From positions 1-20,311 of the IMG/VR virus record IMGVR_UViG_3300045952_000104: a stretch of DNA of 20,311 nt, one strand, 5' to 3'. The stretch comes from a virus. Each line of letters starts with the position of its first letter. Position 1 is the stretch's first letter. Shown piece by piece: positions 1-20,311 of the stretch. The position numbers and the translations under genes are program-made. The notes under the pieces are model-generated. The model was not told the origin of the DNA and made no database searches. It was given only the letters and a program-made list of their open reading frames with translations.

Positions 1-1
1 G

Positions 2-103
2 GGAGTCTCAGGAGAGGCCTCCGGAACAATCTCTCCCCAGGTCCGACGCCGTGAGTCGCGATGGGCGACGGCGGCGCGCGACTACACGCGACGGAAGCCG
101 TGA
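2..103 (+). CDS. C-terminus of an upstream gene, possibly small terminase subunit (partial)
   Basis: An open frame enters from the left edge and ends with TGA at 101-103, leaving 33 residues. The visible tail is basic, ending RRRESRWATAARDYTRRKP. Its stop overlaps a GTG codon of the terminase gene as GTGA (100-103), the coupling style used throughout this genome. The small terminase subunit commonly lies just upstream of the large one, so that identity is a positional inference only. The remaining sequence is too short to show a domain. The competing frame on this stretch stops at 52-54. Confidence 0.5.
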   Translation, partial: GVSGEASGTISPQVRRRESRWATAARDYTRRKP

Positions 104-1482
104 CGCTCCCGGCCACGATCGCGCGACCGAAGCGCGGCGTCCAGGTCCCGCGCATCGCTCCCCCGCGTCCCGCGCGGAGCCTGATCCGCGAGTTCCGGAA
201 GGTCGCGGTCGAAGCCGGGATCGTCCTCATGAAGTGGCAGGACACGGCGGCGATCTACCTCACGGCGCGCGGGCCGACGGGCTGGATGTTCCGCGAGATC
301 GCGGTCGTCGTCGCGCGGCAGAACGGGAAGACCGAACTCCTCGTCCCGCGCATCCTCCTAGACCTGAGGGCGGGGAAGCGGGTCATCCACACGGCGCAGA
401 ACCGGACCCTCCCCCGGGAAGTCTTCCTCCGGGTGGCCTCCCTCCTGGACCCCGACGAGGTCCGCTTCATCCGCTACGCGAACGGGCAGGAGATGATCTC
501 GATGAAGAACGGCGGGTCCTACCGGATCGTCGCTCCTCAACGAGGCGCGCGCGGCCTGACCGGGGACACCCTGATCTTCGACGAACTGCGCGAGTTCGAG
601 GACTACGACATCGTCGGCGCAGCGGGTCCGACGCTGACGGCGTCGCCGGACCCTCAGGTCATCTACCTGTCGAACGCGGGGTACGACTCGTCCGTCGTCC
701 TGAACGATCTCCGGCGTCGCGGCGAGACCGGCGGCGACGGGGACCTCTGCTATCTGGAATGGAGCGCGGACCCGGACCGTCCGGCCCAGGACCGGCGCGG
801 GTGGGCGGAGGCGAACCCGGCGCTCGGGACGATCATCTCCTGGGACTTCCTGGAGCATCAGTACCGGACCCGGCCTCCGGCGATCTTCGAGACGGAGCAT
901 CTCTGCCGATGGACCGCGTCCTCGAACCCGACCCTCGTCTCGATCGGGGCCTGGGCCTCGTGTCAGGCGAAGATCACGGAGGACCCGGTCCGGCCCTCGA
1001 TGGCCTTCAACATGGACCCGTCCGGGAAGCGCGCGTCGGCGGCGATGTCCTGGACGATGACCGACGGTCGGGTCGCGCTCGTCGAACTGGAGGAGGCGAC
1101 GGGGGACCCGATCGCGGTCGAACTGCTCGGCGCGCGGCTGAAGGAACTCGCCCGGACGCATCGCGCGCGGCGGATCGCCTTCGCATCCTGGACCGACAAG
1201 GACCTCGCGCGCTATGTCCCCCGGGCCGAGGCGCTCGACGGGAAGGAGTTCGCGAACGCGTCCGAGAACTTCGCGCGGCTCGTGGCTCAGGGTCGGCTCG
1301 CATGGGAGTCGGCGGACCACATCTCCGAGGACCTCGCGTGGACGGCGCGGAAGCCTCACGAGTCGGGCGCATGGCAAGCCGTCCCAGTCAATCAGGAGCG
1401 GGCGGTGACATCGGTCCTCGCGGCGATCCGCGCGGTATGGTTAGCCTCGGCTCCTCGCCCTCCCGTTCCGAGGATAGGTTAG
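100..1482 (+). CDS. terL: Terminase large subunit (DNA-packaging ATPase/nuclease)
   Basis: This is the motor that cuts and pumps phage DNA into the prohead through the portal. A Walker A variant, ARQNGKT, lies near residues 72-78, and a Walker B run, DTLIFDE, near 156-162; both are typical of HK97/P22-like phage terminases. The C-terminal half (about 280-440) should hold the RNase H-like nuclease; candidate acidic residues occur in FNMDPSGK and ASWTDKD, but I cannot assign the triad. The start is uncertain. GTG at 100 overlaps the upstream stop as GTGA and gives 460 residues. ATG at 61 would give 473 residues but has no ribosome binding site and overlaps the upstream gene by 43 bases. Portal follows two bases after the stop, the usual order. 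The product is certain; the start is moderately supported. Confidence 0.93.
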   Translation: MTLPATIARPKRGVQVPRIAPPRPARSLIREFRKVAVEAGIVLMKWQDTAAIYLTARGPTGWMFREIAVVVARQNGKTELLVPRILLDLRAGKRVIHTAQNRTLPREVFLRVASLLDPDEVRFIRYANGQEMISMKNGGSYRIVAPQRGARGLTGDTLIFDELREFEDYDIVGAAGPTLTASPDPQVIYLSNAGYDSSVVLNDLRRRGETGGDGDLCYLEWSADPDRPAQDRRGWAEANPALGTIISWDFLEHQYRTRPPAIFETEHLCRWTASSNPTLVSIGAWASCQAKITEDPVRPSMAFNMDPSGKRASAAMSWTMTDGRVALVELEEATGDPIAVELLGARLKELARTHRARRIAFASWTDKDLARYVPRAEALDGKEFANASENFARLVAQGRLAWESADHISEDLAWTARKPHESGAWQAVPVNQERAVTSVLAAIRAVWLASAPRPPVPRIG

Positions 1483-1484
1483 AG

Positions 1485-2834
1485 ATGGGACTTCTCTCGC
1501 AACTGGCCGAACTCTTCATCCCTCCTCCGGCAGAGGAGCAGATGCGCGTCGTGAACTCCGAGGACTTCATCCTCGCGGACGAAGCGAGCGCGATCGACGA
1601 CAACTACCTGAACTTCGTCGCGATGATCACGGCGCGACGGAACGGCGGGTCGTACCGCGTCCCGTCCGTGGACGAGGCGCTCGGCGTCCCGGCGGTGTGG
1701 GCGGCGACGACGCTCATCGCGAACACGGTCGGCTCGCTCTCGATGGAGGCCTACCGGAGCGGCGTCCTCCTGGAGCCGAAGGAGACGCCGAGGCTGATCC
1801 AGAGGCCGAACCCGTTCACGACTCCGCGCGAGTTCTACCGGGATACGGCCTACTACCTCGCGACGCGCGGGGAGGCGTGGTGGTGGATACCGACCCGGGA
1901 CACGGACGGCTCGGCGCTCGCGCTGTACCCGATCCCTCCCTGGGAGATCAGCGTCGAACCGAACGGGCGGAACCGGCTCCGTCCGACGATCAAGTGGGGG
2001 AGGGAGACCGTCGCGAACGACGACCTCCGGCATCTGACGATGATCCGGGGGAAGGACGGGCGCGGGGTCGGCCCGCTCCAGAAGTGCGGCTCGGCAGTCT
2101 CCGTCACGGTCGAGGCGCAGGACTGGGCGGCGAACTTCTTCTCGGGGAACCTCCCGTCGATCATCGGGACGACGGATCAGGACCTCGACGAGGGCGAACT
2201 GAAACTGCTCGACAAACAATGGGCGGAGAAGGCCGGGAACCTCCCGCGCTGGATGACCCAGGGGATGAAGATCGCGCCGTCGCCGATCTCGCCCGAGACG
2301 GCGCAACTGACGGAGGCGCGGAACCATCAGATCGGGGAAGCGGCTCGGATGTTCTCGATGCCCGGGGCGCTCCTGGAGTTCCAGATGGGCGGGTCCTCGA
2401 TCACCTACCAGAACCAGCAGGACATCTGGTCCGACTTCCAGCGGCGGTGTCTCTCGCCGAACTACCTCGAACCGATCGAGCAGGAGATGACCGACCTCCT
2501 CGTCCGCTCGACGACCGCGCGCTTCAACCTGAAACAACTGCTCCGGGCCGACGCGAAGACGCGCTTCGAGGTCCACAAACTCGCGATCGAGGCGGACATC
2601 TACGACTCGGAGACGGCGGCTCGCGAGGAGGGCTACGCTCCGGGATCGGTGGACTTCGCTCCGGTTCCGTTCGCGGTCCCTCAGGCGGTCCCGGCGCTGA
2701 TCCCGACGATGACCCGCTCGGAGGCTCCGCTCCAGGACCTCCGGTGTCCGAAGTGCGGATGGCTCGCGGGCCGCGTCGCAGGGCGGGCGGAGATCAAGTG
2801 TCGGCGCTGCGGGAAGATCGTCGAGGCGGCATGA
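1485..2834 (+). CDS. Portal protein with C-terminal Com-like zinc ribbon
   Basis: This is the dodecameric ring at the capsid vertex through which DNA enters and to which the connector attaches. The 449-residue protein resembles the HK97-type portal family: an N-terminal VPAVWAATTLIANTVGSL segment, a central WEISV/MIRG region, and MGGSSITYQNQQ followed by LSPNYLEPIEQEMTDLL in the C-terminal half. After a Pro/Val-rich linker (about 390-415) the chain ends in a two-knuckle zinc ribbon with Cys at 421, 424, 439 and 442. Its pattern RCPKCG...EIKCRRCGKI resembles the Mu Com mRNA-binding family. The same frame is open upstream through the terminase gene, but that part is an out-of-frame shadow. The start chosen is ATG 1485, directly after the terminase stop. 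Portal assignment is firm; the Com-like reading is by motif only. Confidence 0.92.
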   Translation: MGLLSQLAELFIPPPAEEQMRVVNSEDFILADEASAIDDNYLNFVAMITARRNGGSYRVPSVDEALGVPAVWAATTLIANTVGSLSMEAYRSGVLLEPKETPRLIQRPNPFTTPREFYRDTAYYLATRGEAWWWIPTRDTDGSALALYPIPPWEISVEPNGRNRLRPTIKWGRETVANDDLRHLTMIRGKDGRGVGPLQKCGSAVSVTVEAQDWAANFFSGNLPSIIGTTDQDLDEGELKLLDKQWAEKAGNLPRWMTQGMKIAPSPISPETAQLTEARNHQIGEAARMFSMPGALLEFQMGGSSITYQNQQDIWSDFQRRCLSPNYLEPIEQEMTDLLVRSTTARFNLKQLLRADAKTRFEVHKLAIEADIYDSETAAREEGYAPGSVDFAPVPFAVPQAVPALIPTMTRSEAPLQDLRCPKCGWLAGRVAGRAEIKCRRCGKIVEAA

Positions 2835-2835
2835 G

Positions 2836-5478: not shown

Positions 5479-5813
5479 AGGTCGTCGAGTACGGCGTCCA
5501 GGAGGTCCCTCGCGGGCTTCCTGGACTCCGGGGCATCTTCGTAGGCGGCTGCGTGGATCGCGGCGTCGGGAGTTCGTTCCGGGCGCGGGGACACGCGCAC
5601 AACCGGCGCGGCGACTCGAACCTGGGATGGGTCTGTATCCGCTCCTCGAAGCGGGTCTTCACGGCGCGCGGGTGGCCGACGCGTCTCCTCTGGCACGAGT
5701 ACGCGCACATCCTCACGCCGGGACACGGCCACGACGACAAGTGGAGGGAGGCGATGCGCTTCCTCCGGCAGCCGATCCCGGCCCGCTACCAGAAGCGGCG
5801 GACGGCGATGTAG
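5475..5813 (+). CDS. Small HEXXH zinc metallopeptidase-like protein
   Basis: This 112-residue protein starts at GTG 5475, overlapping the previous stop. Residues 74-78 are HEYAH, a zinc-protease HEXXH helix, followed eight residues later by H86 in a GHDDKW motif. The HEXXH...GHDxxW arrangement matches minimal SprT-like/WLM-like peptidases, with H74, H78 and H86 as zinc ligands and E75 as catalytic base. The N-terminal half is basic and lacks a signal peptide. It sits between P1 and the prohead protease-capsid gene, so roles in virion maturation or in cleaving a host protein are possible. Length is near the minimum for this fold. Catalytic motif confidence is high; function is unknown. Confidence 0.7.
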
Positions 5814-6048
5814 GATCGGAGACGGGCCGGGACGAGCCGTCGGCGCTGCGCGATGCGGCGGTGGGTCCGAACCCTCGGGACCGATCCGTCCCTCGGGACT
5901 GATCGGGAGGCCATGACTCCCGGCCCTAGACACGCGCCGACCTGATCGGCTACTCTCGCGGCGAACTGAAGTATCGACCGACGCAGGACCTCAGAGTCCG
6001 TCGGGCAACGGAAGGCCTCCGAGCCTACGCGCTAGGAGGTCTTTCTCT
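5814..6048 (+). other. 235-base non-coding gap before the capsid gene
   Basis: I see no convincing gene here. It holds two copies of CCCTCGGGAC (5872-5881 and 5890-5899), 18 bases apart. A GGGAG/CTCCC-type stem follows at about 5904-5922, with a seven-base loop and no T-run. The gap ends in the ribosome-binding-site hairpin at 6013-6042. No TTGAC-type promoter was found. It most likely acts as leader or intercistronic regulatory RNA for the capsid gene. Confidence 0.5.
6013..6042 (+). promoter_or_regulatory. Hairpin that masks the capsid-gene ribosome binding site
   Basis: AGGCCTCC (6013-6020) can pair over 8 bp, with one G-U pair, with GGAGGTCT (6035-6042) across a 14-base loop. The 3' arm contains the near-perfect Shine-Dalgarno AGGAGGT (6034-6040), which is eight bases from ATG 6049. 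Initiation of the capsid fusion could therefore be gated by RNA folding. Confidence 0.5.
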
Positions 6049-7761
6049 ATGTCAGACGAAGAGACGGTCGATCTCGAACCGAGAGAGACCGACGCAGTCG
6101 AGGCAGAGGTCCAGGTCCGCGACGCTGCGCTCCGCGAGGTCGAGTTCCGGATCATGCCGTGGAACACTCCCGTCAACACGGTCTTCGGGCCGGAGGAGTT
6201 CGACCGTGGAGCCTTCGCTGAAGTCGATCCGAAGAAGGTCCTTCTCATGGGACCGGAACACGAGGCCCACTTCGGCGTCGGTCAGGACGGGAAGCCTCGT
6301 CTCACTCGGCGTCCGATCGGGCGGGGGAAGTGGCTGGAGGAGCGCGACGACGGGGCCTACATGGGCTTCCGAGTGGCGGCGACTCAGGCCGGGGACGAGT
6401 ACCTCGTCCTCGCTCAGGAAGGGGTCATCGACTCGGCCTCGGTCGAGTTCGTGGAGCGTCTAGGCGGGACGCGCTACACGGTGAAGAACGGGAGGCGGCA
6501 CAAGGTCCACGCGCGCGTCGATCTCCCGGCAGTCTCGCCTACATACCGACCGGCCTATCCAGGCGCGGCGGTGATCGCAGTCCGCTCGGCGGAGGAGGAA
6601 GAGGAACCGATGGCAACTTCAACGAAGGCGGTCCAGGAGGACCCGGCTCCCGAGCCGACGCCTCCCGACGAGCCTCAGGAACCGGAGAAGGTTCCGGAGG
6701 GCATCCAGGCCCGCTCGATCCAGGGCTACTTCGACCGGATGGACGCGAGCCTCGCGGACTTCGCGGAGAAGTTCGTCTCCCGGCTGGAGTCCGTCGAGGA
6801 GCGGACCCGGTCGCAGTTCATCGTCCCCGCAGTCGAGGACGAGGCTCCTTCGACCTCGATCGGCGAGTGGACGGCTCTCGTCTTCAAACTGCTCTCCGGG
6901 GATCGCATCCCTGAGTCGCAGATGCGGACGGTCGCCGACCTGATCACCCCGGACAACGCGGGCGTCGTTCCGGAGGCCTTCGTCTCCGAACTGCGCGGCG
7001 TCATCGACCCGAGCCGTCCGTTCATGGAGTCCACGCGACAACTGCCGATGCCGACCTCCGGGACCTCGATGCGTGTCCCGAAGATCACGCAGCGTCCGAC
7101 CGTCGCGGAGCAGGAGGACGAGAAGGACGAACTCTCGTCTCAGAAGACGATCATCACTTCCGAGACCTTCGAGATGAAGACGAAGGGCGGAGTCGGGGAC
7201 CTGTCGCTTCAACTGCTGAAGCGGTCCGATCCGTCGTTCCTCGATCTGTATGTCCGGCTCCTGGCCGAGGCCTACGCGATCGAAACGGACGACGAGGCGG
7301 TCCACGAACTGATCGACGCGATCGGTTCGGTCGGAGCGGCAGACCCGATGGACCCGGAGAACCTCGCGCTCGGCGCGTCGTTCCAGACTTCGTTCGACGC
7401 GATCCGTCGTCCTCCGGACACGATCTGGCTCTCGACGGAGGCCGTCGGTTCGTTCATCGACGCGAAGGCGACGGGGACGAACGCTCCGCTCTACCCGGGC
7501 CTTCAGGCCTCGGCGACGGCGGCGGGCGGGATCACGGGGACGATCTCCGGACTCCGGCCCGTTCATGTTCCGGCGCTCGACGCTCACGGGGCCTACGCGA
7601 TCGTCGGACCGTCGTCCGGCTTCGCATGGGCGGAGGACGGAACCTACACCCTCCAGGTCGATGTCCCGGCCCGCGCGGGTCGCGATGTCTCGATCGTCGG
7701 GATGGTGTGGTTCGTTCCCTGGTATCCCGACGCGTTCTCTCTCTACAATGTGGCCTCCTAA
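6049..7761 (+). CDS. Fused prohead protease, scaffold-like linker and HK97-fold major capsid protein
   Basis: This 570-residue polyprotein builds and matures the capsid. Residues about 20-180 match the prohead serine protease family (U35/S78): EFRIMPWNTP, LLMGPEHEAHFG with likely catalytic H71, and GVIDSASVEFV with likely nucleophile S131. Residues about 185-280 are acidic, Pro/Glu-rich then helical (FDRMDASLADFAEKFVSRLE), like the HK97 delta/scaffold region. Residues about 285-570 are the capsid domain, with VPEAFVSELRGVIDPSRPFM, the SETFEMKTKGG strand and a closing DVSIVGMVWFVPWYPDAF. The strong ribosome binding site AGGAGGT lies inside a hairpin. An internal ATG at 6610 has its own ribosome binding site and may make capsid alone. 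Connector genes follow 29 bases later. Confidence 0.92.
   Translation: MSDEETVDLEPRETDAVEAEVQVRDAALREVEFRIMPWNTPVNTVFGPEEFDRGAFAEVDPKKVLLMGPEHEAHFGVGQDGKPRLTRRPIGRGKWLEERDDGAYMGFRVAATQAGDEYLVLAQEGVIDSASVEFVERLGGTRYTVKNGRRHKVHARVDLPAVSPTYRPAYPGAAVIAVRSAEEEEEPMATSTKAVQEDPAPEPTPPDEPQEPEKVPEGIQARSIQGYFDRMDASLADFAEKFVSRLESVEERTRSQFIVPAVEDEAPSTSIGEWTALVFKLLSGDRIPESQMRTVADLITPDNAGVVPEAFVSELRGVIDPSRPFMESTRQLPMPTSGTSMRVPKITQRPTVAEQEDEKDELSSQKTIITSETFEMKTKGGVGDLSLQLLKRSDPSFLDLYVRLLAEAYAIETDDEAVHELIDAIGSVGAADPMDPENLALGASFQTSFDAIRRPPDTIWLSTEAVGSFIDAKATGTNAPLYPGLQASATAAGGITGTISGLRPVHVPALDAHGAYAIVGPSSGFAWAEDGTYTLQVDVPARAGRDVSIVGMVWFVPWYPDAFSLYNVAS
6610..7761 (+). CDS. Probable internally initiated capsid protein (383 aa, nested in frame)
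   Basis: ATG 6610 is in frame with the fusion gene, at its residue 188, exactly between the protease and the scaffold/capsid part. It is preceded by a long purine run, GGAGGAGGAAGAGG (6591-6604), five bases upstream. The first codons (GCA ACT TCA ACG) are unusually A/T-rich compared with the GCG/ACG/TCG used everywhere else, a common feature of real initiation regions. The product would hold the delta-like region and the whole capsid domain. This would allow many capsid copies per protease, like the nested scaffold of the lambda C gene. It is inferred, not demonstrated. Confidence 0.5.
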   Translation: MATSTKAVQEDPAPEPTPPDEPQEPEKVPEGIQARSIQGYFDRMDASLADFAEKFVSRLESVEERTRSQFIVPAVEDEAPSTSIGEWTALVFKLLSGDRIPESQMRTVADLITPDNAGVVPEAFVSELRGVIDPSRPFMESTRQLPMPTSGTSMRVPKITQRPTVAEQEDEKDELSSQKTIITSETFEMKTKGGVGDLSLQLLKRSDPSFLDLYVRLLAEAYAIETDDEAVHELIDAIGSVGAADPMDPENLALGASFQTSFDAIRRPPDTIWLSTEAVGSFIDAKATGTNAPLYPGLQASATAAGGITGTISGLRPVHVPALDAHGAYAIVGPSSGFAWAEDGTYTLQVDVPARAGRDVSIVGMVWFVPWYPDAFSLYNVAS

Positions 7762-7790: not shown

Positions 7791-8072
7791 ATGGCATGGC
7801 CTACGGCGGCGGACCTGAAGAAGAGACTCGACATCCCTTCGTCCGACTGGGACGAACACATGGAGAGGCTAATCGGAGGGTCCGTCGCATGGGTCAAGGC
7901 CCAGGTCGGCGACTGGGACGAGGAGACTGACACCCCGGACGACGCGCTCGCTCAGGCGGCGCTCGAACGAGCAGTCGAACTCGCAACGAACGGGGAGCAG
8001 GAGGAACCTCGCGCCGTCTCGAAGGCGCGGGCGCTCCTGTACGGACACCGGAGGAGGTTCGGGATCGGATGA
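7791..8072 (+). CDS. Head-tail connector (gp6-like adaptor)
   Basis: This 93-residue protein starts 29 bases after the capsid stop. It opens with WPTAADLKKRLDIPSSDWDEHMERLIGGSVAWVKAQVG and is otherwise helical, ending in ALLYGHRRRFGIG. A helical protein of about 90-110 residues with a T-x-x-DLK-x-R-L opening and an aspartate-rich loop, immediately after the capsid gene, fits the HK97 gp6 / SPP1 gp15 adaptor family that docks on the portal. Its stop overlaps the next ATG as ATGA. ATG 7791 is used; a nearby ATG at 7796 is out of frame. Confidence 0.72.
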   Translation: MAWPTAADLKKRLDIPSSDWDEHMERLIGGSVAWVKAQVGDWDEETDTPDDALAQAALERAVELATNGEQEEPRAVSKARALLYGHRRRFGIG

Positions 8073-8209
8073 GCGATCAGACGAGAGACGCGATCGGGGA
8101 GCGCGAGCGGCGATCTCGGGGCGAACCGGCTCCGAAGGAGAAGAAGGACAAGGAGCCGAAGGACGAGAAGGCTCCGGCGGAGAGTGGCGGGTCTGAAGGG
8201 AGCGCGTGA
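8069..8209 (+). CDS. Small highly charged protein (46 aa)
   Basis: This short gene starts at ATG 8069, overlapping the connector stop (ATGA), and ends at 8207-8209. The product is mostly Lys, Glu, Asp, Arg and Pro (for example APKEKKDKEPKDEKAPAE) and should be disordered. Its last 26 bases overlap the start of the next gene. Codon third positions are G/C-rich as in neighbours, supporting real coding. I do not recognise it; it could be a flexible connector accessory or merely a coupling peptide keeping ribosomes on the message. Confidence 0.5.
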   Translation: MSDQTRDAIGERERRSRGEPAPKEKKDKEPKDEKAPAESGGSEGSA

Positions 8210-8600
8210 GGCGAAGGCCCGCGCGCGAGCGATCCAGGCTGCTCCTCAGAAGGTCCGGAAGGACTGGCAGAAGCGGGCCGTTCAGATCACGAAGGCCGCG
8301 ACGCCGTCCGTCACGGGGAAGACGAGGCGCTCGATCAAGGCGCGACACGGCGGCGGCGACACGGCTCAGGTCGTCGGGAACGCGCCGGTCCTCTTCATCG
8401 ACCGGGGCGTGAAGGCTCACGACATCGAGCCGGTCCGACGGCGGGCGCTGAAGTTCAAGGGTCGCGAGGCGATCTTCCGACCGAAGGCACACAAGCCTCG
8501 ACAGGCCGCGAAGCCGTACCTGAAGAAGGCGGCTCGACTCGCGATGGAGGCGGTCGATCCGGAGGACGCGGTCATCCGTCTCTGGAACGGAGCGGCGTAG
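8184..8600 (+). CDS. Tail-completion / neck protein, HK97 gp10-like
   Basis: This 138-residue basic protein starts at GTG 8184. It shows the hallmark order of the HK97 gp10-like family: TPSVTGKTRRSIKARHGGG, then VGNAPVLFIDRGVKAHDIEP, then ALKFKGREAIFRPKAHKPRQAAKPYLKKAARLAM. The usual pattern is TG-L-SI..., Y-x-x-V-E-x-GT..H.I, and a final H-P...aqPFL helix; here Phe-Ile-Asp-Arg-Gly-Val replaces the E-x-G-T piece. The family joins connector to tail. Its gene lies between connector and tail terminator, the expected position. The start overlaps the 46-codon gene; a CGGAG site precedes it. Confidence 0.75.
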   Translation: MAGLKGAREAKARARAIQAAPQKVRKDWQKRAVQITKAATPSVTGKTRRSIKARHGGGDTAQVVGNAPVLFIDRGVKAHDIEPVRRRALKFKGREAIFRPKAHKPRQAAKPYLKKAARLAMEAVDPEDAVIRLWNGAA

Positions 8601-9044
8601 ATGCCACGGTACGCGATGCGTCAGGCGATGCGAACGGCGGCGGTCGCGCTCCTGAACGACTACGCGGCATCTGACGGCCTGACCCTCCAGGTCTACCCGG
8701 GCCGACCTCGATCCTTCTATCCCCCGACCGCGTTCGTTGACGCGATCAACGAGCCGGAGATCACCTACACCGGCCTCCGTCAACGGAAGGTCCAGGTCGA
8801 GATCATCCTCGTACACGGCCTCTACGACTCGGCGGAGGCGGCGCTCCAGGTAGACGAGTTCATGGACGAGTTCCTCGACTGGGTCACGGACAACGCGGCG
8901 GAGTCCGGACCGGCGACGCTCTCGGCGATCATCTCGACGGAGGACATCCCGGCCTTCGTCCCGGACTGGCTTCCGGAGGACGAGCAGAAGTCCTACTATG
9001 CGACTCGGGTCACATTGGAGGGTCTCGTACTGGACGGGAACTGA
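8601..9044 (+). CDS. Tail terminator-like protein
   Basis: The ATG at 8601 directly abuts the previous stop. The 147-residue protein opens with a helix (MRQAMRTAAVALLNDYAAS) then a mixed strand/helix body: LQVYPGRPRSFYPPTAFVDAI, RKVQVEIILVHGLYDSAEAA, FMDEFLDWVTDN, and a closing YYATRVTLEGLVLDGN. Size, alpha/beta layout and position just before the tail tube gene fit the lambda gpU / HK97 gp10-neighbour tail-terminator group, which caps the tail at the head end. The call rests on gene order plus general shape, so it is moderate. Confidence 0.6.
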   Translation: MPRYAMRQAMRTAAVALLNDYAASDGLTLQVYPGRPRSFYPPTAFVDAINEPEITYTGLRQRKVQVEIILVHGLYDSAEAALQVDEFMDEFLDWVTDNAAESGPATLSAIISTEDIPAFVPDWLPEDEQKSYYATRVTLEGLVLDGN

Positions 9045-9107
9045 TCGGCGGTCACACTCGGGTCCAGCCTCGGACGGTAGAGGTCCTCAGCGTAGGAGTG
9101 GAAGCAG

Positions 9108-10175
9108 ATGCCTATCCAGGGATTCACGCGACTTCGGCGGCACATCTTCGGGCGGCAGGGCGCGTTCGGGAACGCGGAGCCGGGACAACGGGCCTACCCG
9201 TTCCAGGGGACTCCCGATGTGGACCTCTCATGGACCGACCCGGAGGGCGACTTCGGATCGTTCGACCCGGTGGCTCCCCCGTACCGGGGCGCTCCGGAGA
9301 TCGGCGCTCCGCTCACGGCTCCGATCCTGAACTACAACGACCTCCCGCTCCTCCTCTGCGCGTTCTTCGGCGGAGGCGAGACTCCGACCGGCGGCGGGAC
9401 GGCGAAGACCTGGGCGCACACTCCCGCGTCTCTCACGGCGGACGCGTTCGATCACTTCACCTACGAGTTCGGGGACGATGTCCTGACCGACTGGTATCAA
9501 CTGCGGGACGGCATCCTCCAGGAGTTCGAGGTCTCCGGATCGGAGCAGGGTCCGCTCGAAGCGTCGATGACCTGGATGTTCGGACACGCGGCCTCGACCG
9601 GCTCGACGGACTCTCCGGTGGACGGCTCCGTCCCGGCGAACGAGGTCGTAGACGCGAGGGCGATCCCGCTCTACCTGAAGGATATGTCCCTCTACATCGA
9701 CTCGACCCCGGGCGCGCTCGGCGGGACGCAGATTCTCGACGCGGTCCACGGGATCAGGCTCCGGCACTCTCAGGAACTCGATAAGAAGCGGTTCTCGAAC
9801 GGCGCGCAGGAGTTCGAGATCAACGGCTACGGGCGCTCGACCCGGACGATCGAACTGGAGATGACGCTCGCGAAGACGACCGACACGGTCGGGACCGGCT
9901 CGGAGTCGGACGCGTGGATGTCGGACGAGGCGGTCGATCGGTATCTCCGGCTGGAGTTCATCTCGACGGCCTTCGCGCAGACGGCGGGGTCCCCCGACAT
10001 CCCGTACTCGTGGCGCGTGAACCTCCCGCTCCGCTACTACACGCGGGCGGAGGGCGAGATGGGCGGGAACACGACGATCGTCCTGAACGGTCACGCGTTC
10101 CTCGACGATACCCTCGACTATGTCTACGACTCGACCCTCGTGAACACGCTCGCGCTGACGGACTTCCAGTCGTGA
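9108..10175 (+). CDS. Major tail tube protein
   Basis: The 355-residue protein forms stacked rings of the tail tube. It is beta-rich with no membrane segment. Its N-terminal GFTRLRRHIFGRQGAFGNAEP, the segment TPDVDLSWTDPEGDFGSF and the C-terminal SWRVNLPLRYYTRAEGEMGG resemble major tail proteins of siphoviruses. It sits immediately upstream of the frameshifted chaperone genes and the tape measure gene, which is the diagnostic order. A 63-base gap with TAGGAG and GGAAG purine stretches precedes ATG 9108. The stop overlaps the chaperone GTG as GTGA. It may carry an extra domain, since many tail tube proteins are closer to 200-250 residues. Confidence 0.85.
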   Translation: MPIQGFTRLRRHIFGRQGAFGNAEPGQRAYPFQGTPDVDLSWTDPEGDFGSFDPVAPPYRGAPEIGAPLTAPILNYNDLPLLLCAFFGGGETPTGGGTAKTWAHTPASLTADAFDHFTYEFGDDVLTDWYQLRDGILQEFEVSGSEQGPLEASMTWMFGHAASTGSTDSPVDGSVPANEVVDARAIPLYLKDMSLYIDSTPGALGGTQILDAVHGIRLRHSQELDKKRFSNGAQEFEINGYGRSTRTIELEMTLAKTTDTVGTGSESDAWMSDEAVDRYLRLEFISTAFAQTAGSPDIPYSWRVNLPLRYYTRAEGEMGGNTTIVLNGHAFLDDTLDYVYDSTLVNTLALTDFQS

Positions 10176-10702: not shown

Positions 10703-10839
10703 TCGCCCGGTGGCGGCTTCAACTGATCGCGGAAGTAGAGGTCGGGACGGCATCCCGAAACCGGAACCGGCAGGAGGATGCCCAGGTGTCCCGACTGAAG
10801 AAGGCGACGGCGCGGAGGAGGGCTAGTGGCGCTCGCTGA
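10172..10839 (+). CDS. Tail assembly chaperone, -1 frameshift fusion (gpGT-like)
   Basis: After a -1 slip at CCCTTTA, translation continues in the frame of AGT 10549 and ends at TGA 10837-10839, for about 222 residues. The added 96 residues have normal composition: EEVLAHFADGKIDISALGWY, SEDSEAVLAILDFYYPDG, RDDFIVARWRLQLIAEVEVG, then a basic end, KKATARRRASGAR. This is the T part, which recruits tail tube protein to the G-coated tape measure. The region lacks a sensible separate start, third-position G/C bias changes frame exactly at the slip site, and the tape measure gene follows with a 14-base overlap. These three points make the frameshift the simplest reading. Confidence 0.85.
10543..10576 (+). 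promoter_or_regulatory. Programmed -1 frameshift site: CCCTTTA plus downstream stem
   Basis: The heptamer C CCT TTA (10543-10549) is in zero frame and fits X XXY YYZ exactly. Seven bases later GGGCGA (10557-10562) can pair with TCGCCC (10571-10576) over an eight-base loop. An alternative stem, GCGAAG (10559-10564) with CTTCGC (10578-10583), competes with it. TTA is a very rare codon here; I found only one other in frame, at 1441-1443. Confidence 0.85.
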
Positions 10840-12841
10840 TACCGCGCGGCTCGTCTCGGAGATGGTCCTCCTCGACAAGTTCTCGGGGACCGCGAGGAAG
10901 TACGGCCAGTCCGTCTCGACGATGGAGCGTCAGACATCGACGCTCGGGCGCGTCGGTCAGACGGCGGCGGGCGGCATCGGGACCGCAGTCGGGAACCTCG
11001 CGAAGATGGGAGTCATCGGGGTCGGCATCCTCGGGACTCAGGTCGCGGCGGGCATCCGATCCCTCGAACGGCTCGAAGAGGTCGTCGTCGCGACGAATAC
11101 GGTCATCGCCTCGACGGGCGGCGTCGCGGGCCAGACGGCGGACGACATCCGGAACCTCGCCGAGAAGTACGAGGGACTGAACGCGACGATCGACGACAAG
11201 GTCATTCAGTCGGCGGAGAACCTCCTCCTGACCTTCACGAACATCCGAGGAGAGGCCTTCGAGCCGACCCTCGAAGCGGCGTTGAACATGAACCAGGCCC
11301 TCGGCGGCGGGGAAGAGGGACTCCAGGGGACCTTGATCAAGGTCGCGCGCGCGCTCAATGATCCGGTCGCGGGCCTCTCTGCGCTCTCCCGGGTGGGCGT
11401 CCAGTTCTCCGACGAGCAGAAGGACCGGATCAAGCAAGCCGTCGAGGAGAACCGGCTGTACGACGCGCAGACGATCATCCTCGACGCGCTCGCGGTGAAG
11501 TTCGGCGGGCAGTTCGCGGCGGCGGGGGACACGGCGGCGGCGAAGTTCGCGAAGTTCCGGGACACGATCGAGGACGCGCAGATGTCCCTCGCGACCGCGT
11601 TCCTCCCGGTCCTCGTCAAGGTCGCGGACAAACTCGGGGAGTTCCTCGCGAAGCCTGAGACTCAGGCGATGATCGCCGAACTCGGGGAGGGACTGGCCGA
11701 CGCGTTCGATCAGGTCGTCGAACTCGCGGGCCGCGTCCCGTGGACCTCTGTCATCGACGCCTTCAAGATCATGGGGACCGGCTCGAAGGCCCTACTCGAC
11801 GCGTTCGTCGCGCTCCCTCCCTGGGTCCAGACGGCGGTCATCACGGGATGGGGCCTGAACAAACTCACGGGCGGCGCGCTCTCGACGATCTTCTCGACCC
11901 TCGCGTCGGGAGTCATCCGGGGCGTACTCGGGATCAACGCGGGCGTCGTCAACCTGAAGGCGGCGACGGTCGTCGGCGGCGCGGGAGCGGGCGCTCCCGT
12001 CGCAGCGGGCGGCGGGGCGGGCGGCGTGATCACGAAGATACTCGGCGTCGTCTCGGCGGTCGCGCTCGGCGCGCTCATCGGGAACGAGATCGGACACGCG
12101 ATCTTCGATCCGACCGTCAAACCGGCGGTCGAGTTCGAGCAGTCGCAGTTCGACCGGCTCGTCGCGTCCCAGGACCCGGACGCGATCCGACGAGGCCTCC
12201 AGGCGATCGAGGGCGGACTCGACGACCTCGACGCGCTCGGCCCGCTGAAACTGCTCGCCGGGGATCAGTACGACATCCTCGTCTCGCAGCGGGACACCCT
12301 CCGCTCGATGCTGACCGAACTGGGCGAACCGACGGTAGTCCCTCCGGCGAACCGACCGACGGGTCCGGTCGCGACGGGGACGCAGCCGGTCCCAGTCGCG
12401 GTCGCGGGGAACCCGGCGAACGATCTCTCGCAGTCGCGGCAGTTCCTCGCGAACATCCAGGGCGCGACGGCGACGACGAAGGAGAAGCAGGCGGCGAACC
12501 TGGAGGCGGCTCGGCGGGGGAACCTGATCGCCGGGGACGAACTCTCGACCTCGAAGCGGTCGTCGATGCTCCGCTCGTCGGAGTCGATCCGTTCCTTCTT
12601 CGCCCAGGAGCGATCGACCGGGGCGACGAAGACGGCGGCGATGATGGCGAAGGGCGACGCGGTCCGGGACTTCTTCACGCAGATCGGACAGATGGGACTC
12701 CTCCGGATCATCGCGTCGAAGAACTTCTCGCCGACGATCATCGTCAGGACGACGACGAACACCAGCATCTCCGGGAAGACGGTCCAGTCCACGATCACGC
12801 AGCAACAACTGAAGGTCGGAACCGGCCCGACGCCGTTCTAG
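10826..12841 (+). CDS. Tail tape measure protein
   Basis: This 671-residue protein sets tail length and is ejected with the DNA. It starts at GTG 10826, overlapping the chaperone end. Residues 1-50 are helical (LADTARLVSEMVLLDKFSGT). A hydrophobic Gly/Ala segment lies near 50-80 (GVIGVGILGTQVAAG). A conserved tape-measure core follows: ENLLLTFTNIRGEAFEPT, VARALNDPVAGLSALSRVGV, DAQTIILDALAVKFGGQFA, and FRDTIEDAQMSLATAFLPVL. A second hydrophobic region is near 360-425. At about 0.15 nm per residue the tail would be roughly 100 nm, short for a siphovirus. No lysozyme or peptidase domain is visible in it. Confidence 0.9.
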   Translation: MALADTARLVSEMVLLDKFSGTARKYGQSVSTMERQTSTLGRVGQTAAGGIGTAVGNLAKMGVIGVGILGTQVAAGIRSLERLEEVVVATNTVIASTGGVAGQTADDIRNLAEKYEGLNATIDDKVIQSAENLLLTFTNIRGEAFEPTLEAALNMNQALGGGEEGLQGTLIKVARALNDPVAGLSALSRVGVQFSDEQKDRIKQAVEENRLYDAQTIILDALAVKFGGQFAAAGDTAAAKFAKFRDTIEDAQMSLATAFLPVLVKVADKLGEFLAKPETQAMIAELGEGLADAFDQVVELAGRVPWTSVIDAFKIMGTGSKALLDAFVALPPWVQTAVITGWGLNKLTGGALSTIFSTLASGVIRGVLGINAGVVNLKAATVVGGAGAGAPVAAGGGAGGVITKILGVVSAVALGALIGNEIGHAIFDPTVKPAVEFEQSQFDRLVASQDPDAIRRGLQAIEGGLDDLDALGPLKLLAGDQYDILVSQRDTLRSMLTELGEPTVVPPANRPTGPVATGTQPVPVAVAGNPANDLSQSRQFLANIQGATATTKEKQAANLEAARRGNLIAGDELSTSKRSSMLRSSESIRSFFAQERSTGATKTAAMMAKGDAVRDFFTQIGQMGLLRIIASKNFSPTIIVRTTTNTSISGKTVQSTITQQQLKVGTGPTPF

Positions 12842-12842: not shown

Positions 12843-14846
12843 ATGAGTCAGGTCATCAGCATCGACGGGGTCGATCGGGCGAGTGTGATCCGCTACCCGG
12901 GGTCTACCTTCGACTCGAACGCGTGGAACGGGGAGGCGGGGACCGGGACGCTCCTCCTGGAGGACGAGGCGGCGGTCCTCGACTTCCCAGGGCTGAAGAT
13001 CGTCCGGATGACGGAGGACGCGTCCGGCTCGACGAAGCATCTCTATCGGGGACGGGTCATGACGAAGGAGTTCGCGCGCGGCTCCTTCCGGGCGGACGAC
13101 TCCCATCAGAAGGTCGTCAACCTGTCGGACTCGAACTGGGACCTCCGGCGGCTCCGGGTCCATCAATGGAGCCGACCGTCGGAGACCGGGCGGGCGCGCG
13201 TCGTCGCGCTCGCGGCGTACATCCTGAACGGCGCGTCCTCCACGGTGACGAACGCGACGAAGCGGAACTCGACCGTGATCAACGCGACGACCTATGTCCC
13301 GAACACGAACCTCGTCACGATGGACGCTCATGTGTACGACTCGACCGATCCCTACGCGGTGATCGAGGAGTGCGCGCGGGCGGAGGGGAAGACCTTCTTC
13401 GTCTTCGCGGATGTGACGACCGGGAATATGTTCCTCTTCTACGACCTGGGGACCTCGACGGCGATAGCCTCGACGGTCTCGATCACGGACGAGGACCCCG
13501 ACGGCGAGACGACCTTCGCTCCGGCGGAGGACGGCTCCCCCGGAGCCGAGGACCCGACCGAACTCCTGAGCGGCGCGGGGATGGTCTACGGGCAGCAGGA
13601 GACGATCGCGGAGTCTCGACCCGCGATCGCGACGGCGCACGATGTCGCCGAAGACACGATCTACGACTCGGGCGCGGGGAGCGACGCGGCGACGCGGCTC
13701 TCGAACTTCCTCGATGTCCGCGAGGAGGAGGAACTCCGCTACTCCTGCTCGATCGAGGTCCGCGATGATCAGGCCCATCTCATCCAGGCGGGACAGACGA
13801 TCTCCTTCCGGTGGGCGGCGGCGAACGCGCTCACGCCGACGATTCAGCGGATCGTCCGCTGCGCGCCGGAGAAGATCGAGCCGGACCGATACCGGCTCCA
13901 TCTCGAACTCTCCTTCCCTGAGAAGGTCCGGCCCAGGATTCAGAATCACGGGCAGGGGACCGTCTCGATCCGGCGGGTCCTCGCGCAGACGAGCCTCGGG
14001 GCGAACATCAACACGGACCTCGGGACGACCACGATCGTCGAGTCGGAGGGCTACGCTCCTCCGGGCGCGTGGAATACCGGCGTCCCGAACTTCCAGGCCG
14101 ACATCGGCGTCGATCTGACGGGAGCCTCAGGCTCGCCCGTCTGTGATCCGTCGCCTCCGAAGTACCTCTGGTTCGACGAGCGTATCTACTTCGGGGCGAT
14201 CTACACGGTCGCGTCGATCCCGGCGGCGGGGTCCTATGTCGGCCTCCGTCTTACCTTCGAGAGTTCCTGGGACGCATGGTCGGAGGGCATCCACGGCGGG
14301 ATCAACGGACGGGACTCCGATCAACTGGGTCCCGTCCTCGTCGTCGCGCTCTCCGGGGCGACGCTCGTCCCGTCGGACATCTACGGCGGGGGACCGGCGG
14401 TCCTGTCCTATATGGGGGCCAACGGGCCGAACCTCGAACACGAGGTCACGATCCCGTACAACTATGTCAACTGGGGCGGCGGGATGCGCTTCGTCTTCAT
14501 CCCGCTCTTCCGGGTCTTCGTCCATGCCATCTGCGAGGACCTCTACTCGCCGACTGTCGGACAGGGCGGATGTCACATCGGGAACGAGACCTTGAAGCCG
14601 ATCTCCGTAGACTCGATCGGGTGGATCACGAATAGCGTCGTCGGGACGCAGGACGGCTTGAACGGAGCCTTCACCCTGCTCGGCGGATGGGAGGAGATCG
14701 AGTCGGTCTCGATCAACGGCCTCGACTACGGCCTCGACGGGATCAACCTCGACTCGGGATCGCCGAACCTGGAGTTCCTGGGAGGCTTCGCTCCGGTCTC
14801 GACCGATACGGTGATGGTCCGCTACCGGATGAAGACGGCTCCATGA
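12843..14846 (+). CDS. Large tail-tip / baseplate protein
   Basis: The gene begins one base after the tape measure stop. The 667-residue protein has an N-terminal half consistent with a tail hub or distal-tail role: VISIDGVDRASVIRYPGSTF, the LYRGRVMTKEFARG strand pair, WDLRRLRVHQWSRP, and a helical VALAAYILNG. The middle has IQAGQTISFRWAAANALTPT. The C-terminal part, from about residue 370, is strand-rich and Gly/Tyr-rich (YNYVNWGGGMRFVFIPLFRV) and ends in a compact VMVRYRMK module. Immediate position after the tape measure fits the distal-tail or hub proteins of siphoviruses. Exact equivalence cannot be shown here. Its stop overlaps the next start as ATGA. Confidence 0.65.
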   Translation: MSQVISIDGVDRASVIRYPGSTFDSNAWNGEAGTGTLLLEDEAAVLDFPGLKIVRMTEDASGSTKHLYRGRVMTKEFARGSFRADDSHQKVVNLSDSNWDLRRLRVHQWSRPSETGRARVVALAAYILNGASSTVTNATKRNSTVINATTYVPNTNLVTMDAHVYDSTDPYAVIEECARAEGKTFFVFADVTTGNMFLFYDLGTSTAIASTVSITDEDPDGETTFAPAEDGSPGAEDPTELLSGAGMVYGQQETIAESRPAIATAHDVAEDTIYDSGAGSDAATRLSNFLDVREEEELRYSCSIEVRDDQAHLIQAGQTISFRWAAANALTPTIQRIVRCAPEKIEPDRYRLHLELSFPEKVRPRIQNHGQGTVSIRRVLAQTSLGANINTDLGTTTIVESEGYAPPGAWNTGVPNFQADIGVDLTGASGSPVCDPSPPKYLWFDERIYFGAIYTVASIPAAGSYVGLRLTFESSWDAWSEGIHGGINGRDSDQLGPVLVVALSGATLVPSDIYGGGPAVLSYMGANGPNLEHEVTIPYNYVNWGGGMRFVFIPLFRVFVHAICEDLYSPTVGQGGCHIGNETLKPISVDSIGWITNSVVGTQDGLNGAFTLLGGWEEIESVSINGLDYGLDGINLDSGSPNLEFLGGFAPVSTDTVMVRYRMKTAP

Positions 14847-17107: not shown

Positions 17108-17941
17108 ATGTTCGCGAACCCGCTCCCAGGGCGCATCCAGGCGAAGGAGGAGGCGTGGCGGGGGACGCCGACCTTCCGCGTGACCTCGACCTTCGCTGAT
17201 CATGTTGCGAGCGGCAGGGGTCACGGCGTAGACATCGGGAACGGACGCTGCGGGGATCAGGTCTTCGCGATGGAGGCCGGGGTCGTCTCGGCGAACTTCC
17301 GGGACCCGGGGAACGGCGCGGTCATCGTCCGGGTCCGACACGCGGGCGCGCTCGCGGCCTACGAGTCGGGCTACGCGCATCTCTCGACGACGCTCGTCGG
17401 GGTCGGCGCGGCAGTCCGGCGCGGACAGGCGATCGGGACCGTCGGGATGACAGGCGCGACGGCGTGTCATCTCCATCTCGGGATGAAGAAGAACGGGGTC
17501 GAAGTGGACTCATGGCCGCTGCTCGACCAGAACATCGCGCAGACTGGAGGAGGAGTGGATGTGATCCAGGGGACGAACCCGACGGCGATCGTCAACCGGA
17601 AGACGAGCGTCAAGGGGAACGCGACGAACTTCCGGGCGGACCCTTCGACCGCGAATCCGCAACTGGCGCAGTTCCAGGCGGGCGCGGTCTTCCTCCCTGA
17701 CTTCGGGGTCCAGGGCCAGTCCGTCTCCGGCTCGGCCTTGTGGTACGCGGGCTTCATGCTCGTCAACGGGAAGCAGACGCTCGGCTACTTCCACTCCTCG
17801 ACGGTCGGCGAACTGACGCCGGTCGAGGCGACGGGAGGCTACACGGAGGCCGATGTCGCGAAGGCGAAACTCGACGGCGCGAACGAGCGCGAGGCGGCAT
17901 GGGAGGCGTGGAACACGGCGGCTCAGGGGAACAAGCCGTGA
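17108..17941 (+). CDS. M23-family peptidase endolysin with C-terminal SH3-like domain
   Basis: This 277-residue protein cleaves peptidoglycan cross-links. Residues about 20-140 are a LytM/M23 zinc peptidase: DHVASGRGHGVDIGN with D42 as ligand and H32 or H39 as its histidine partner, YAHLS (H91), and the HxH motif CHLHLG (H121, H123). The first motif departs from the textbook HxGxD spacing, resembling M23 proteins with an H-x6-GG-x-D pattern. Residues about 155-235 (AIVNRKTSVKGNATNFRADP...GFMLVNGKQTLGYFHSST) look like a bacterial SH3 wall-binding domain, followed by a helical tail. There is no signal peptide, so export needs a holin. Holin-like genes lie on both sides. A tail-associated role is less likely. 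Confidence 0.85.
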   Translation: MFANPLPGRIQAKEEAWRGTPTFRVTSTFADHVASGRGHGVDIGNGRCGDQVFAMEAGVVSANFRDPGNGAVIVRVRHAGALAAYESGYAHLSTTLVGVGAAVRRGQAIGTVGMTGATACHLHLGMKKNGVEVDSWPLLDQNIAQTGGGVDVIQGTNPTAIVNRKTSVKGNATNFRADPSTANPQLAQFQAGAVFLPDFGVQGQSVSGSALWYAGFMLVNGKQTLGYFHSSTVGELTPVEATGGYTEADVAKAKLDGANEREAAWEAWNTAAQGNKP

Positions 17942-18400: not shown

Positions 18401-18405
18401 ACTCC

Positions 18406-18499: not shown

Positions 18500-18625
18500 G
18501 TGTCCTTCCTCCACTCTCTCGCCCGTCGATGGCGGCTGCGAGGCTCCGAGACCTGGGTCCTCGTTCCACCCTACCGGGGACTCTGGAACGAGCCGAACCC
18601 GGCCCGCTGGCTCCGGGTCCGATGA
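18500..18625 (+). CDS. Small hypothetical protein (41 aa), first gene of the P2 operon
   Basis: GTG 18500 follows an excellent AGAAGGAG ribosome binding site (18485-18492) seven bases upstream. The product is basic and Trp-rich (SLARRWRLRGSETWVLVPPY, then WNEPNPARWLRVR). Its stop overlaps the next ATG as ATGA (18622-18625). No domain is recognised. A start farther upstream in a different frame would run through the promoter itself and is rejected. Being first after P2 and well initiated, it is probably real, perhaps an early regulator or host-interaction peptide. Confidence 0.55.
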   Translation: MSFLHSLARRWRLRGSETWVLVPPYRGLWNEPNPARWLRVR

Positions 18626-18834
18626 TCGACCGCTTCCGTCGATGGCTCTACGAGCCGGACGAGGAACTCGCCGAACATCTCCGCGAGCCTCTGACCTTCC
18701 GGACCCTGTCGATCAACTTCCCATCCCGGACGATCACGATCGACGGGACGACGCACACGATCGAGGCCGACTCCGTCGCGATCCCGATCCTCTCGACTGA
18801 GCATCCGGTGATCCCGGGCGGGAGGAGATGGTGA
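18622..18834 (+). CDS. Small hypothetical protein (70 aa)
   Basis: ATG 18622 overlaps the preceding stop. The product starts MIDRFRRWLYEPDEELAEHL, a short amphipathic helix, then has two strand-like segments, FRTLSINFPSRTITIDGTTH and TIEADSVAIPILSTEH, and a basic end. The D-G-T-T-H-T-I-E-A-D turn suggests a small beta-hairpin or OB/RHH-like fold, but nothing is recognisable. Its stop overlaps GTG 18831 of the nuclease gene, so translation is coupled to it. Confidence 0.5.
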   Translation: MIDRFRRWLYEPDEELAEHLREPLTFRTLSINFPSRTITIDGTTHTIEADSVAIPILSTEHPVIPGGRRW

Positions 18835-19604
18835 TCCCGAAGGAGGGCGCGTTCCGGTCTCCGGCTCACGACTACTGGTTCAACGGGGAAGGCCCGCTCC
18901 CAGGCGCGACGCGACCGGCGGGGGAACTGTCGAAGGACGCGGTGATCAACTGGGCGAAGACGGAGGCCGCGCGCTGCGCGATCCAGAACCTCGACATCGT
19001 CGCCGACCTCGTGAAGCGGGGCGGGGAGGAGGCGGCGATCAAGTGGATCGCGGCGCTCCCGGACTACAAGCGGGACAACGCGGCGACACTCGGCTCGTCG
19101 GTTCACACGATGGCCGAACAGATCGCGCGCGGCGGGGAAGTGACGATCGGGGACACGGAGCGTCCGTACATCGAGGCGTATCAGGCCTTCATCGAGGCGG
19201 AGAAGCCGACCTCCGTCAAGGTCGAGCGGATGGTCTTCAACTTCGAGGTCGGCTACGCCGGGACCCTGGATATGCTCTGCCGACTGAAGGACCCGAAGAC
19301 CGGGCGGACGGTCCTGACCCTGCTCGACCTGAAGACGGGCGCGAGCGCGGGCGGCGTGTGGCCGGAGACGCGGCTTCAACTGGCGGCGTACCGCTACGCC
19401 GAGTTCGTCGGCGTCGTCGGAAACCCGCGACGGTTCGCGATGCCGAAGGTCGAGCGGGTCGCGGTCCTCTGGATCAGGCCCGACAAGGTCGCGCAGGGCT
19501 ACCGGCTGATCGACTACCCGATCGACGAGGCCGACTTCGAGGCGTTCAAGGCCGCTCTCGCGATCCATCGCTGGAAGAAGGCCCTCGGAAGGAGTCGCTC
19601 ATGA
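18831..19604 (+). CDS. PD-(D/E)XK nuclease, RecB/Cas4-like exonuclease
   Basis: The 257-residue product carries the nuclease signature in order (numbered from ATG 18828): LGSSVHTMAEQ with H93, GYAGTLDML with D148, LLDLKTG with D167 and K169, and QLAAYRYAEF with Q184 and Y188. This is the RecB-family pattern shared by lambda-exonuclease-type and Cas4-like phage enzymes that resect DNA for recombination or replication. No four-cysteine iron-sulfur cluster is present (only scattered Cys), so it is not a true Cas4, and no CRISPR array is nearby. GTG 18831 overlaps the upstream stop and lies five bases from GGAGG; ATG 18828, two bases from GGAGG, is the alternative start. Confidence 0.8.
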   Translation: MIPKEGAFRSPAHDYWFNGEGPLPGATRPAGELSKDAVINWAKTEAARCAIQNLDIVADLVKRGGEEAAIKWIAALPDYKRDNAATLGSSVHTMAEQIARGGEVTIGDTERPYIEAYQAFIEAEKPTSVKVERMVFNFEVGYAGTLDMLCRLKDPKTGRTVLTLLDLKTGASAGGVWPETRLQLAAYRYAEFVGVVGNPRRFAMPKVERVAVLWIRPDKVAQGYRLIDYPIDEADFEAFKAALAIHRWKKALGRSRS

Positions 19605-20005
19605 ACCCGTCCATCGAGAAGATCACGGAGGGTCTCGACCTCGTGGCCGAAGGACTGGCCGAACTCGCCCACTCCCTCCGGGCGATCGAGGCCGGGTCCA
19701 GGCCTCAGGAGCGACCTCAGATGGAGCAGTCGGCGACGATCGAGGCCTTCGACCGGGGAGCCGTAGACGACGGCTTCAGCGTCCAGGCGACGAGCCGTCG
19801 AGCGCGTCCCGTCTCCGAGGAGGGCGTCGAGTACGGTCACGAGGCCGTCTGTCCGAAGCATCGCATCCCGTACTCCGACAAGGGTCGCGGTCCGTTCTGC
19901 TCCGCGAAGTCGGACGAGCCTCGATGGACGAACGAGAAGGGCTACTGCCAGATCACGCCGAAGTCGGCGGCGGCGTGGCTCGCGCAACACGCGGTCGGGC
20001 CGTGA
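19601..20005 (+). CDS. Putative zinc-binding protein (134 aa), nuclease operon
   Basis: ATG 19601 overlaps the nuclease stop as ATGA. Residues about 1-32 are a coiled-coil-prone helix (SIEKITEGLDLVAEGLAELA). A polar, disordered middle follows. The C-terminal 55 residues hold a likely zinc site: CPKH (C84, H87), FCSAKS (C100) and GYCQITP (C116), ending WLAQHAVGP. I recall a similar C-P-x-H...Y/F-C-x-x-K...Y-C module at the end of phage proteins encoded near exonucleases and single-strand-binding proteins. A DNA-binding partner of the nuclease is a reasonable guess, not shown. Confidence 0.55.
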   Translation: MNPSIEKITEGLDLVAEGLAELAHSLRAIEAGSRPQERPQMEQSATIEAFDRGAVDDGFSVQATSRRARPVSEEGVEYGHEAVCPKHRIPYSDKGRGPFCSAKSDEPRWTNEKGYCQITPKSAAAWLAQHAVGP

Positions 20006-20166
20006 GGATCGAGCGGTGTCTCGTCTGCGGTCGGTTCGTCTGGCCGTGGCAGCGTCAGGGCTGGATCGTCGGCGCGGCTCGATGGCATGGGGAACACCCT
20101 CCGACCGAAGCGGAGCGGATCGCGCTCTACCTGGAAGTCCAGGCGCGCGCTCCGGACGACCGATGA
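20002..20166 (+). CDS. Small C2H2-like zinc protein (54 aa)
   Basis: GTG 20002 overlaps the previous stop as GTGA. The 54-residue protein has CLVC (C6, C9), a Trp-rich middle (VWPWQRQGW) and HGEH (H29, H32), followed by a short helix, PPTEAERIALYLEVQAR. Two cysteines and two histidines spaced this way suggest a single treble-clef-like zinc site. The function is unknown. Its stop overlaps the next ATG. It joins a chain of small cysteine-bearing genes behind the nuclease. Confidence 0.5.
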   Translation: MRIERCLVCGRFVWPWQRQGWIVGAARWHGEHPPTEAERIALYLEVQARAPDDR

Positions 20167-20311
20167 TTCCGTGTCATCCGGGCGACTACGAGCCGGAGAT
20201 GAACGCGGTCTGCGTCGCATGGCGGGCGGTCGTTGTGGACGGAGGCCTCGGACCTGAGGATACGGAGTGGACAATCCGGACGGAGTGCGGGGATGACGGG
20301 ACGCTCTTCCT
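20163..20311 (+). CDS. Truncated gene at the right edge
   Basis: ATG 20163 overlaps the previous stop as ATGA and the frame stays open to the window end, giving 49 residues. It starts MIPCHPGDYEPEMNAVC and continues with a Trp/Val-rich run, WRAVVVDGGLGPEDTEW. Cysteines appear at residues 4, 17 and 42. Too little is visible for a function; it continues the same operon. Confidence 0.5.
   Translation, partial: MIPCHPGDYEPEMNAVCVAWRAVVVDGGLGPEDTEWTIRTECGDDGTLF

Follow-up and report, generated by a model that had tools for sequence, protein, structure and literature searches.

Apparent purging of many Type II restriction sites from the genome of a tailed phage lineage

Type II restriction enzymes cut unmethylated phage DNA at their recognition sites, and a phage that has lost these sites is protected, as described in PMC6286503 (Rusinov et al. 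2018); the same source presents Type II site elimination as an established phage strategy and, for one of its datasets, finds it in 7.5% of the (phage, site) pairs. Following up an earlier note made from the letters of the DNA, we analysed positions 1 to 20,311 of the IMG/VR virus record IMGVR_UViG_3300045952_000104; this whole stretch of 20,311 bases is called the window. It carries genes for terminase, portal, capsid, tape-measure and M23-peptidase proteins and is very probably part of a tailed phage genome, from a lineage in which selection has removed many Type II restriction sites. Restriction-site avoidance is a known kind of adaptation, seen here at an extreme degree. The new elements are the breadth of the loss, the sharp contrast with relatives and three depleted patterns that match no enzyme known to us.

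The tetramers AGCT, ACGT and TGCA are each found zero times by exact counting over the 20,311 bases, as the earlier note had reported, and its figure of about 60 expected occurrences agrees with the 61.6 each that base composition gives. A second-order Markov model predicts 32, 81 and 8 occurrences of AGCT, ACGT and TGCA, respectively. Shuffles of synonymous codons, which keep the protein and the codon usage of each gene and had been proposed as a check, predict 44, 62 and 11. The case for TGCA is the weakest in the window, where words with CpA/TpG have low counts in general. Other tetramers are kept at high counts (TCGA 264, GATC 244, CGCG 375, CCGG 272, GCGC 225), again in line with the first reading of the sequence.

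The loss is mostly achieved by synonymous codon choice. Based on the called window genes, Glu before CTN is always GAA (27/27, against 41/329 elsewhere), Lys is always AAA (8/8; 3/183 elsewhere) and Gln is always CAA (12/12; 12/185 elsewhere). Before GTN, Asp is GAT in 16/16 cases (48/351 elsewhere), and the codons ending in T are used for Asn (3/3; 9/182 elsewhere), His (3/3; 21/76) and Tyr (11/11; 15/127). Both switches, before Leu CT codons and before Val, had been described without counts and are borne out in full. Examples which avoid AGCT are located on the plus strand at 2196–2210 (GAACTGAAACTGCTC in place, with GAA-CTG and AAA-CTG) and at 2529–2543 (CTGAAACAACTGCTC in place, with AAA-CAA-CTG). 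A second, graded word bias, against CA/TG words, underlies the site elimination: words such as GCAC, CCAA and ACCA are depleted well beyond codon usage, yet present, across the whole window.

The palindromes of four bases (16) and six bases (64) were tested exhaustively. Only ten of the 64 perfect hexamer palindromes occur in the window (ACGCGT 12, AGGCCT 15, CCCGGG 15, CGATCG 46, CGCGCG 40, GCGCGC 32, TCATGA 4, TCCGGA 19, TCGCGA 39 and TGATCA 10) and 54 are absent. The expectation for many of the 54 is low, as the sequence is AT-poor and AT-rich hexamers have an expectation of about zero. Others would be frequent according to the codon shuffles, such as GTCGAC (28), CCGCGG (22), CGGCCG (22), GCCGGC (18), CTCGAG (15) and GGATCC (12); with GGCGCC included, the expectations span 11.7–28. 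Concerning degenerate sites, the loss is all-or-none relative to the shuffles (observed/expected RGATCY 0/19, GDGCHC 0/66, GGYRCC 0/29, CASTG 0/11, CCWWGG 0/11), and gapped sites are missing as well (GCCN5GGC 0/13, GCCNGGC 0/11, CCAN5TGG 0/6). The asymmetric ACCTGC is found zero times against 12 expected, and the non-palindromic GAGCCC and AGATCC are likewise missing. None of the four hexamer palindromes built on TCGA (GTCGAC, CTCGAG, ATCGAT, TTCGAA) occurs, though TCGA itself is abundant. Words which narrowly miss the absent sites are not depleted: CTCGAC/GTCGAG (92), ATCGAC/GTCGAT (54) and ACCGGC/GCCGGT (41) all exceed their Markov expectation.

Palindromic, gapped or degenerate in form, most of the missing patterns appear to coincide with Type II sites; among those with a corresponding enzyme are GCCN5GGC (BglI), CCAN5TGG (PflMI), GDGCHC (Bsp1286I), RGATCY (BstYI), CASTG (TspRI), CCWWGG (StyI) and ACCTGC (BspMI). 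In total, positions 1–20,311 contain no site of 24 patterns (AGCT, ACGT, TGCA, GTCGAC, CTCGAG, CCGCGG, CGGCCG, GCCGGC, GGCGCC, RGATCY, GDGCHC, CASTG, ACCTGC, GCCN5GGC, GCCNGGC, CCAN5TGG, AGGN4CCT, CCWWGG, RCATGY, CGTACG, ACCGGT, AGCGCT, ATCGAT and GGTACC) and one site of a 25th, GGCNGCC. When a site that fits more than one pattern is counted once, under the first of them, this single GGCNGCC compares with a mean of 411 sites in 100 codon shuffles, the lowest of which has 380.

A close relative, IMGVR_UViG_3300045966_000100 (34,523 bases; hereafter G001), shows the same loss from end to end, in the non-structural half as well. Its proteins are 96% (terminase) and 95% (capsid) identical to those of the window and, short repeats aside, the DNA blocks aligned by blastn are 82–96% identical. 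All three tetramers are at zero in G001, and the 12 of the 64 hexamer palindromes that occur are the ten of the window plus a single GGCGCC and a single TCTAGA. The 25 patterns together have two sites (one GGCGCC, one GDGCHC) against a shuffle mean of 644 (lowest 591). Looking at each pattern separately, 17 of the 25 are individually depleted in G001 with a Poisson p ≤ 2.1e-7; each has an expectation above 15 and is observed zero times or once, so that its observed/expected ratio falls below 0.1, the limit used for site elimination. About 17 restriction-type patterns are thus at or near zero in both genomes, in structural and non-structural genes alike.

Site avoidance has remained under selection since the window and G001 diverged. 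The comparison covers 12 of the 24 window genes, those with equal-length orthologues (7,839 bases), which differ at 377 positions (95.2% identity); one blastn block is only 82% identical. Random placement of 377 differences of the same types creates 65 (55–82) forbidden sites of the 24-pattern set, whereas the window has none.

More distant relatives do not share the pattern. We considered a palindrome eliminated when its expectation under an order-1 Markov model was at least 5 and the observed count was at most 10% of it; the eliminated/testable palindromes are 18/35 in the window and 24/43 in G001, compared with 8/44, 3/45 and 1/46 in the relatives G002, G007 and G006, respectively. G006 is 68% (terminase) and 57% (capsid) identical to the window and has the same guanine–cytosine (GC) content (0.68). 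The 24 patterns occur 967 times in G006, 1043 times in G007 and 737 times in G002, against zero in the window and two in G001. The broader comparison included 57 relatives, 53 random contigs and four isolates. The relatives are those 57 of 77 newly listed capsid-family loci which reach 7 kilobases (kb), and include G002, G003, G006, G007 and near-duplicates; AGCT is eliminated in three of them, TGCA in one and ACGT in none (cut-off 12%). The random set comprises 53 viral loci of at least 6 kb, from 80 of at least 120 matching stretches, with no GC filter (lowest shown GC 0.46). The density of the 24 patterns in it is 16.6–39.3 per kb (window 0, G001 0.06), and 33 of the 53 loci have zero or one eliminated palindrome, the highest value being 15/33 (locus L191). 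The window is therefore extreme among the compared viruses, but not alone.

Elsewhere in the capsid family, different sites have been eliminated, for example CCCGGG, which the window retains; such differences would follow if lineages adapt to the hosts that each of them meets. CCGG is nearly gone in only two relatives, L141 (2 vs 49) and L144 (2 vs 34), and is kept by the window. Locus L084, a relative from the same metagenome as G001, also eliminates AGCT, CGGCCG, GGCGCC and ATCGAT and has one CGTACG against 15 expected, while it retains ACGT, TGCA, GTCGAC, CCGCGG and GCCGGC. Five of the six palindromes eliminated in L084 (p 0.053) and eight of the nine eliminated in the related contig G405 (p 0.023) are also eliminated in G001, and L090, from another sample, overlaps with p 0.014, all p-values being uncorrected for the many loci tested. 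The sharing of a site set by phage from the metagenome of G001 is suggestive only.

Selection by restriction fits these results because the missing words are restriction-type sites, the near-miss words are kept, the absences are not seen in a relative of the same GC content, and they have persisted since the split from G001. The best explanation is that roughly 17 or more Type II specificities acted as selectors, in one defence-rich host group or in several hosts. Each missing pattern would have been, or would still be, cut by a restriction endonuclease of hosts which the phage entered unmethylated; every infection would have favoured variants with fewer sites, until none was left, and the lineage would meet, or would recently have met, enzymes for all of the missing sites. 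Pfam recognised no methyltransferase or base-modification family in 49 frames of G001 and 11 of the window, many genes being without a family match; the phage may thus lack DNA modification of its own, as judged from the frames scanned, or a novel modifier may be present. Without a recognisable methyltransferase, it would depend on having no sites; elimination is strongest in phages that do not modify their own DNA. So broad a loss points to a single host group whose Type II repertoire is unusually large and varied, or else to a phage that regularly passes through several host species. The earlier note had proposed long selection by several host restriction systems; that reading is supported in kind, while the scale exceeds 'several'.

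The note had also offered, as an alternative, a single relaxed activity. A nuclease of relaxed specificity for the AGCT, ACGT and TGCA cores could draw on their common weak–strong–strong–weak outline; however, TCGA, the fourth tetramer of that outline, is abundant although every palindromic hexamer built on it is absent, and CCGCGG, CGGCCG, GCCGGC, GGCGCC, RGATCY and the gapped sites are missing without a common core. No one relaxed motif covers the missing sites while sparing CGATCG, TCGCGA, CGCGCG and TCCGGA, and a single enzyme, whose degenerate motif the eliminated words do not fit, is rejected as scarcely credible. An origin in nothing but codon usage, GC content or mutational bias would suit TTAA, AATT and most AT-rich hexamers, for which composition leaves almost no occurrences, and the general rarity of CA/TG words; the codon-preserving shuffles, with their hundreds of sites in both genomes, the retained near-miss words and the hundreds of sites in relatives of equal GC content make this account almost certainly wrong, and it is likewise rejected.

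A general aversion to palindromes or hairpins, for reasons of structure, recombination or packaging, would agree with the 54 missing hexamers and with the perfect palindromes of eight bases (47 observed, 123 expected). The ten hexamers that occur nevertheless reach or exceed their shuffle expectation (e.g. CGATCG 46 vs 32, TCGCGA 39 vs 25, CGCGCG 40 vs 26), CGCG, TCGA and GATC are abundant, half-palindromes of four bases placed 1–11 bases apart are found at about chance frequency, and the non-palindromic ACCTGC, GAGCCC and AGATCC are missing too. We regard this explanation as very improbable and reject it on the retained palindromes. Some viruses do encode restriction enzymes, according to PMC8651126, and the phage or a companion element could make restriction-type nucleases against host DNA, which its own DNA would then have to resist by lacking the sites. 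The only nuclease family in the scanned frames of G001 and the window is that of an exonuclease-like gene, although many G001 genes have no family match and small novel nucleases are possible; at least 17 specificities from one genome of 34.5 kb are implausible, and we consider this source of selection very unlikely as well.

Several points weigh against purging by host restriction. The remaining eight of the 25 patterns reach p-values of only 2.3e-5 to 3e-3 in G001; several patterns were picked from the window and G001 themselves, two sequences which are not mutually independent, and the p-values of degenerate and gapped patterns are optimistic. To our knowledge, no enzyme recognises GCCNGGC, GGCNGCC or AGGN4CCT. 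CA/TG words (e.g. GCAC, CCAA) are broadly depleted, and some asymmetric absences may be word bias. According to Rusinov et al. (PMC6286503), there is little avoidance of asymmetric Type IIG and Type III sites, and ACCTGC is asymmetric. Concerning the divergence from G001, 29 of the differences, fewer than the 65 sites of random placement but more than none, would each introduce a forbidden site if placed alone in G001; neighbouring differences cancel them in the window. An excisionase-like protein in G001 (12973–13170, minus strand; phrog_1840, expectation value (E) 1.4e-7) hints at a possible temperate life, and weaker elimination is reported in the literature, as a tendency, for temperate phages; no integrase was found by Pfam or PHROGs in the scanned frames of G001 and the window. 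Lastly, the search for a host by terminase gave distant matches only and identified no host or cognate restriction system. The window terminase matches mainly actinobacteriophages (about 25–29% identity), and the genome scan with it yielded one contig of 4.3 kb from an Armatimonadetes metagenome-assembled genome (35% identity); 23 of 396 Armatimonadetes genomes have a terminase match, the best outside that assembly at E 2.9e-46 and none strong.

The gene calls were made by script. The terminase large subunit (61–1482, plus strand, as are all window genes given here; 473 amino acids) is similar to annotated phage terminases and served as the query for relatives. The portal protein (1485–2834) is based on a Pfam Phage_portal match in a longer open frame (3–2834). 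The major capsid protein (6049–7761) matches phrog_2263 and phrog_80 and includes a stretch resembling a head-maturation protease; its frame matches both the major-head and the head-maturation-protease families, as if the two were fused. Further downstream are a tape-measure-like tail protein (10826–12841), an M23 peptidase or endolysin-like protein (17108–17941) and an exonuclease (18828–19604), the last assigned through a blastn block only, by homology to G001 5779–6561 (phrog_298). An exact terminal repeat of 127 bases suggests that G001 is a complete genome; a search for transfer RNA genes on G001 found none. G001 also contains, at 7820–9725, a cluster of a nucleotide-sugar epimerase, a hexapeptide transferase and a short DegT-like aminotransferase, which is unusual for a phage of 34.5 kb.

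Loss this complete across so many sites is seldom known in a bacterial phage, and here a close relative is alike while a homologue of equal GC content is not; a literature search of titles and abstracts listed no account of this phage or of site loss on this scale in any single phage of bacteria. The phage seems to answer restriction by its sequence instead of by modification enzymes. A bolder idea, which we hold tentatively and think somewhat doubtful, is that the restriction arsenal of some bacterial group has left a negative imprint on the genome: 17 or more Type II specificities would have acted at once on one lineage, the imprint being gained after the split from G006-like relatives and including GCCNGGC, GGCNGCC and AGGN4CCT, and it could be read from the phage ahead of any discovery of the enzymes. 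Should this hold, it would imply a host group or host range with a restriction breadth not yet described for a bacterial phage. With this set of genomes, the pace at which phages lose sites could be studied, the restriction systems of an uncultured host could be deduced from its phage alone, and specificities not yet known could be predicted.

Compared with the phages of Rusinov et al. (PMC6286503), the window is alike in its near-zero observed/expected ratios, here at presumably orthodox Type II sites, and in the lack of recognisable self-modification; it differs in that a single phage has lost some 17 or more patterns at once, a breadth to be set against the 7.5% given above. Among phage isolates, T7 (21/75 testable palindromes eliminated; GATC 6 vs 149) is also a phage with many eliminated sites, and a lytic one, but the fraction is smaller and, according to its annotation, it has Ocr against Type I systems; phi29 (5/45) and Dismas (5/47) have few. 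For broad-host-range plasmids, Shaw et al. 2023 (PMC10359461) associate wide Type II exposure with stronger avoidance of 6-bp palindromes; the avoidance described there is graded and statistical, whereas in the window phage the loss is complete. The purging of GATC in haloarchaeal tailed viruses is reported in PMC8651126 and PMC4284463. In our counts, HHTV-1 (35,164 of its 49,107 bases analysed) has eliminated 33/54 testable palindromes, and the HHTV-1-like contig IMGVR_UViG_3300003635_000006, which contains L191, 26/55 as a whole. HHTV-1 therefore matches the window lineage in the degree of purging (G001 24/43), but it is an unrelated archaeal virus which has lost another set of words (CATG 0, CTAG 0, GCGC 5), all kept by the window.

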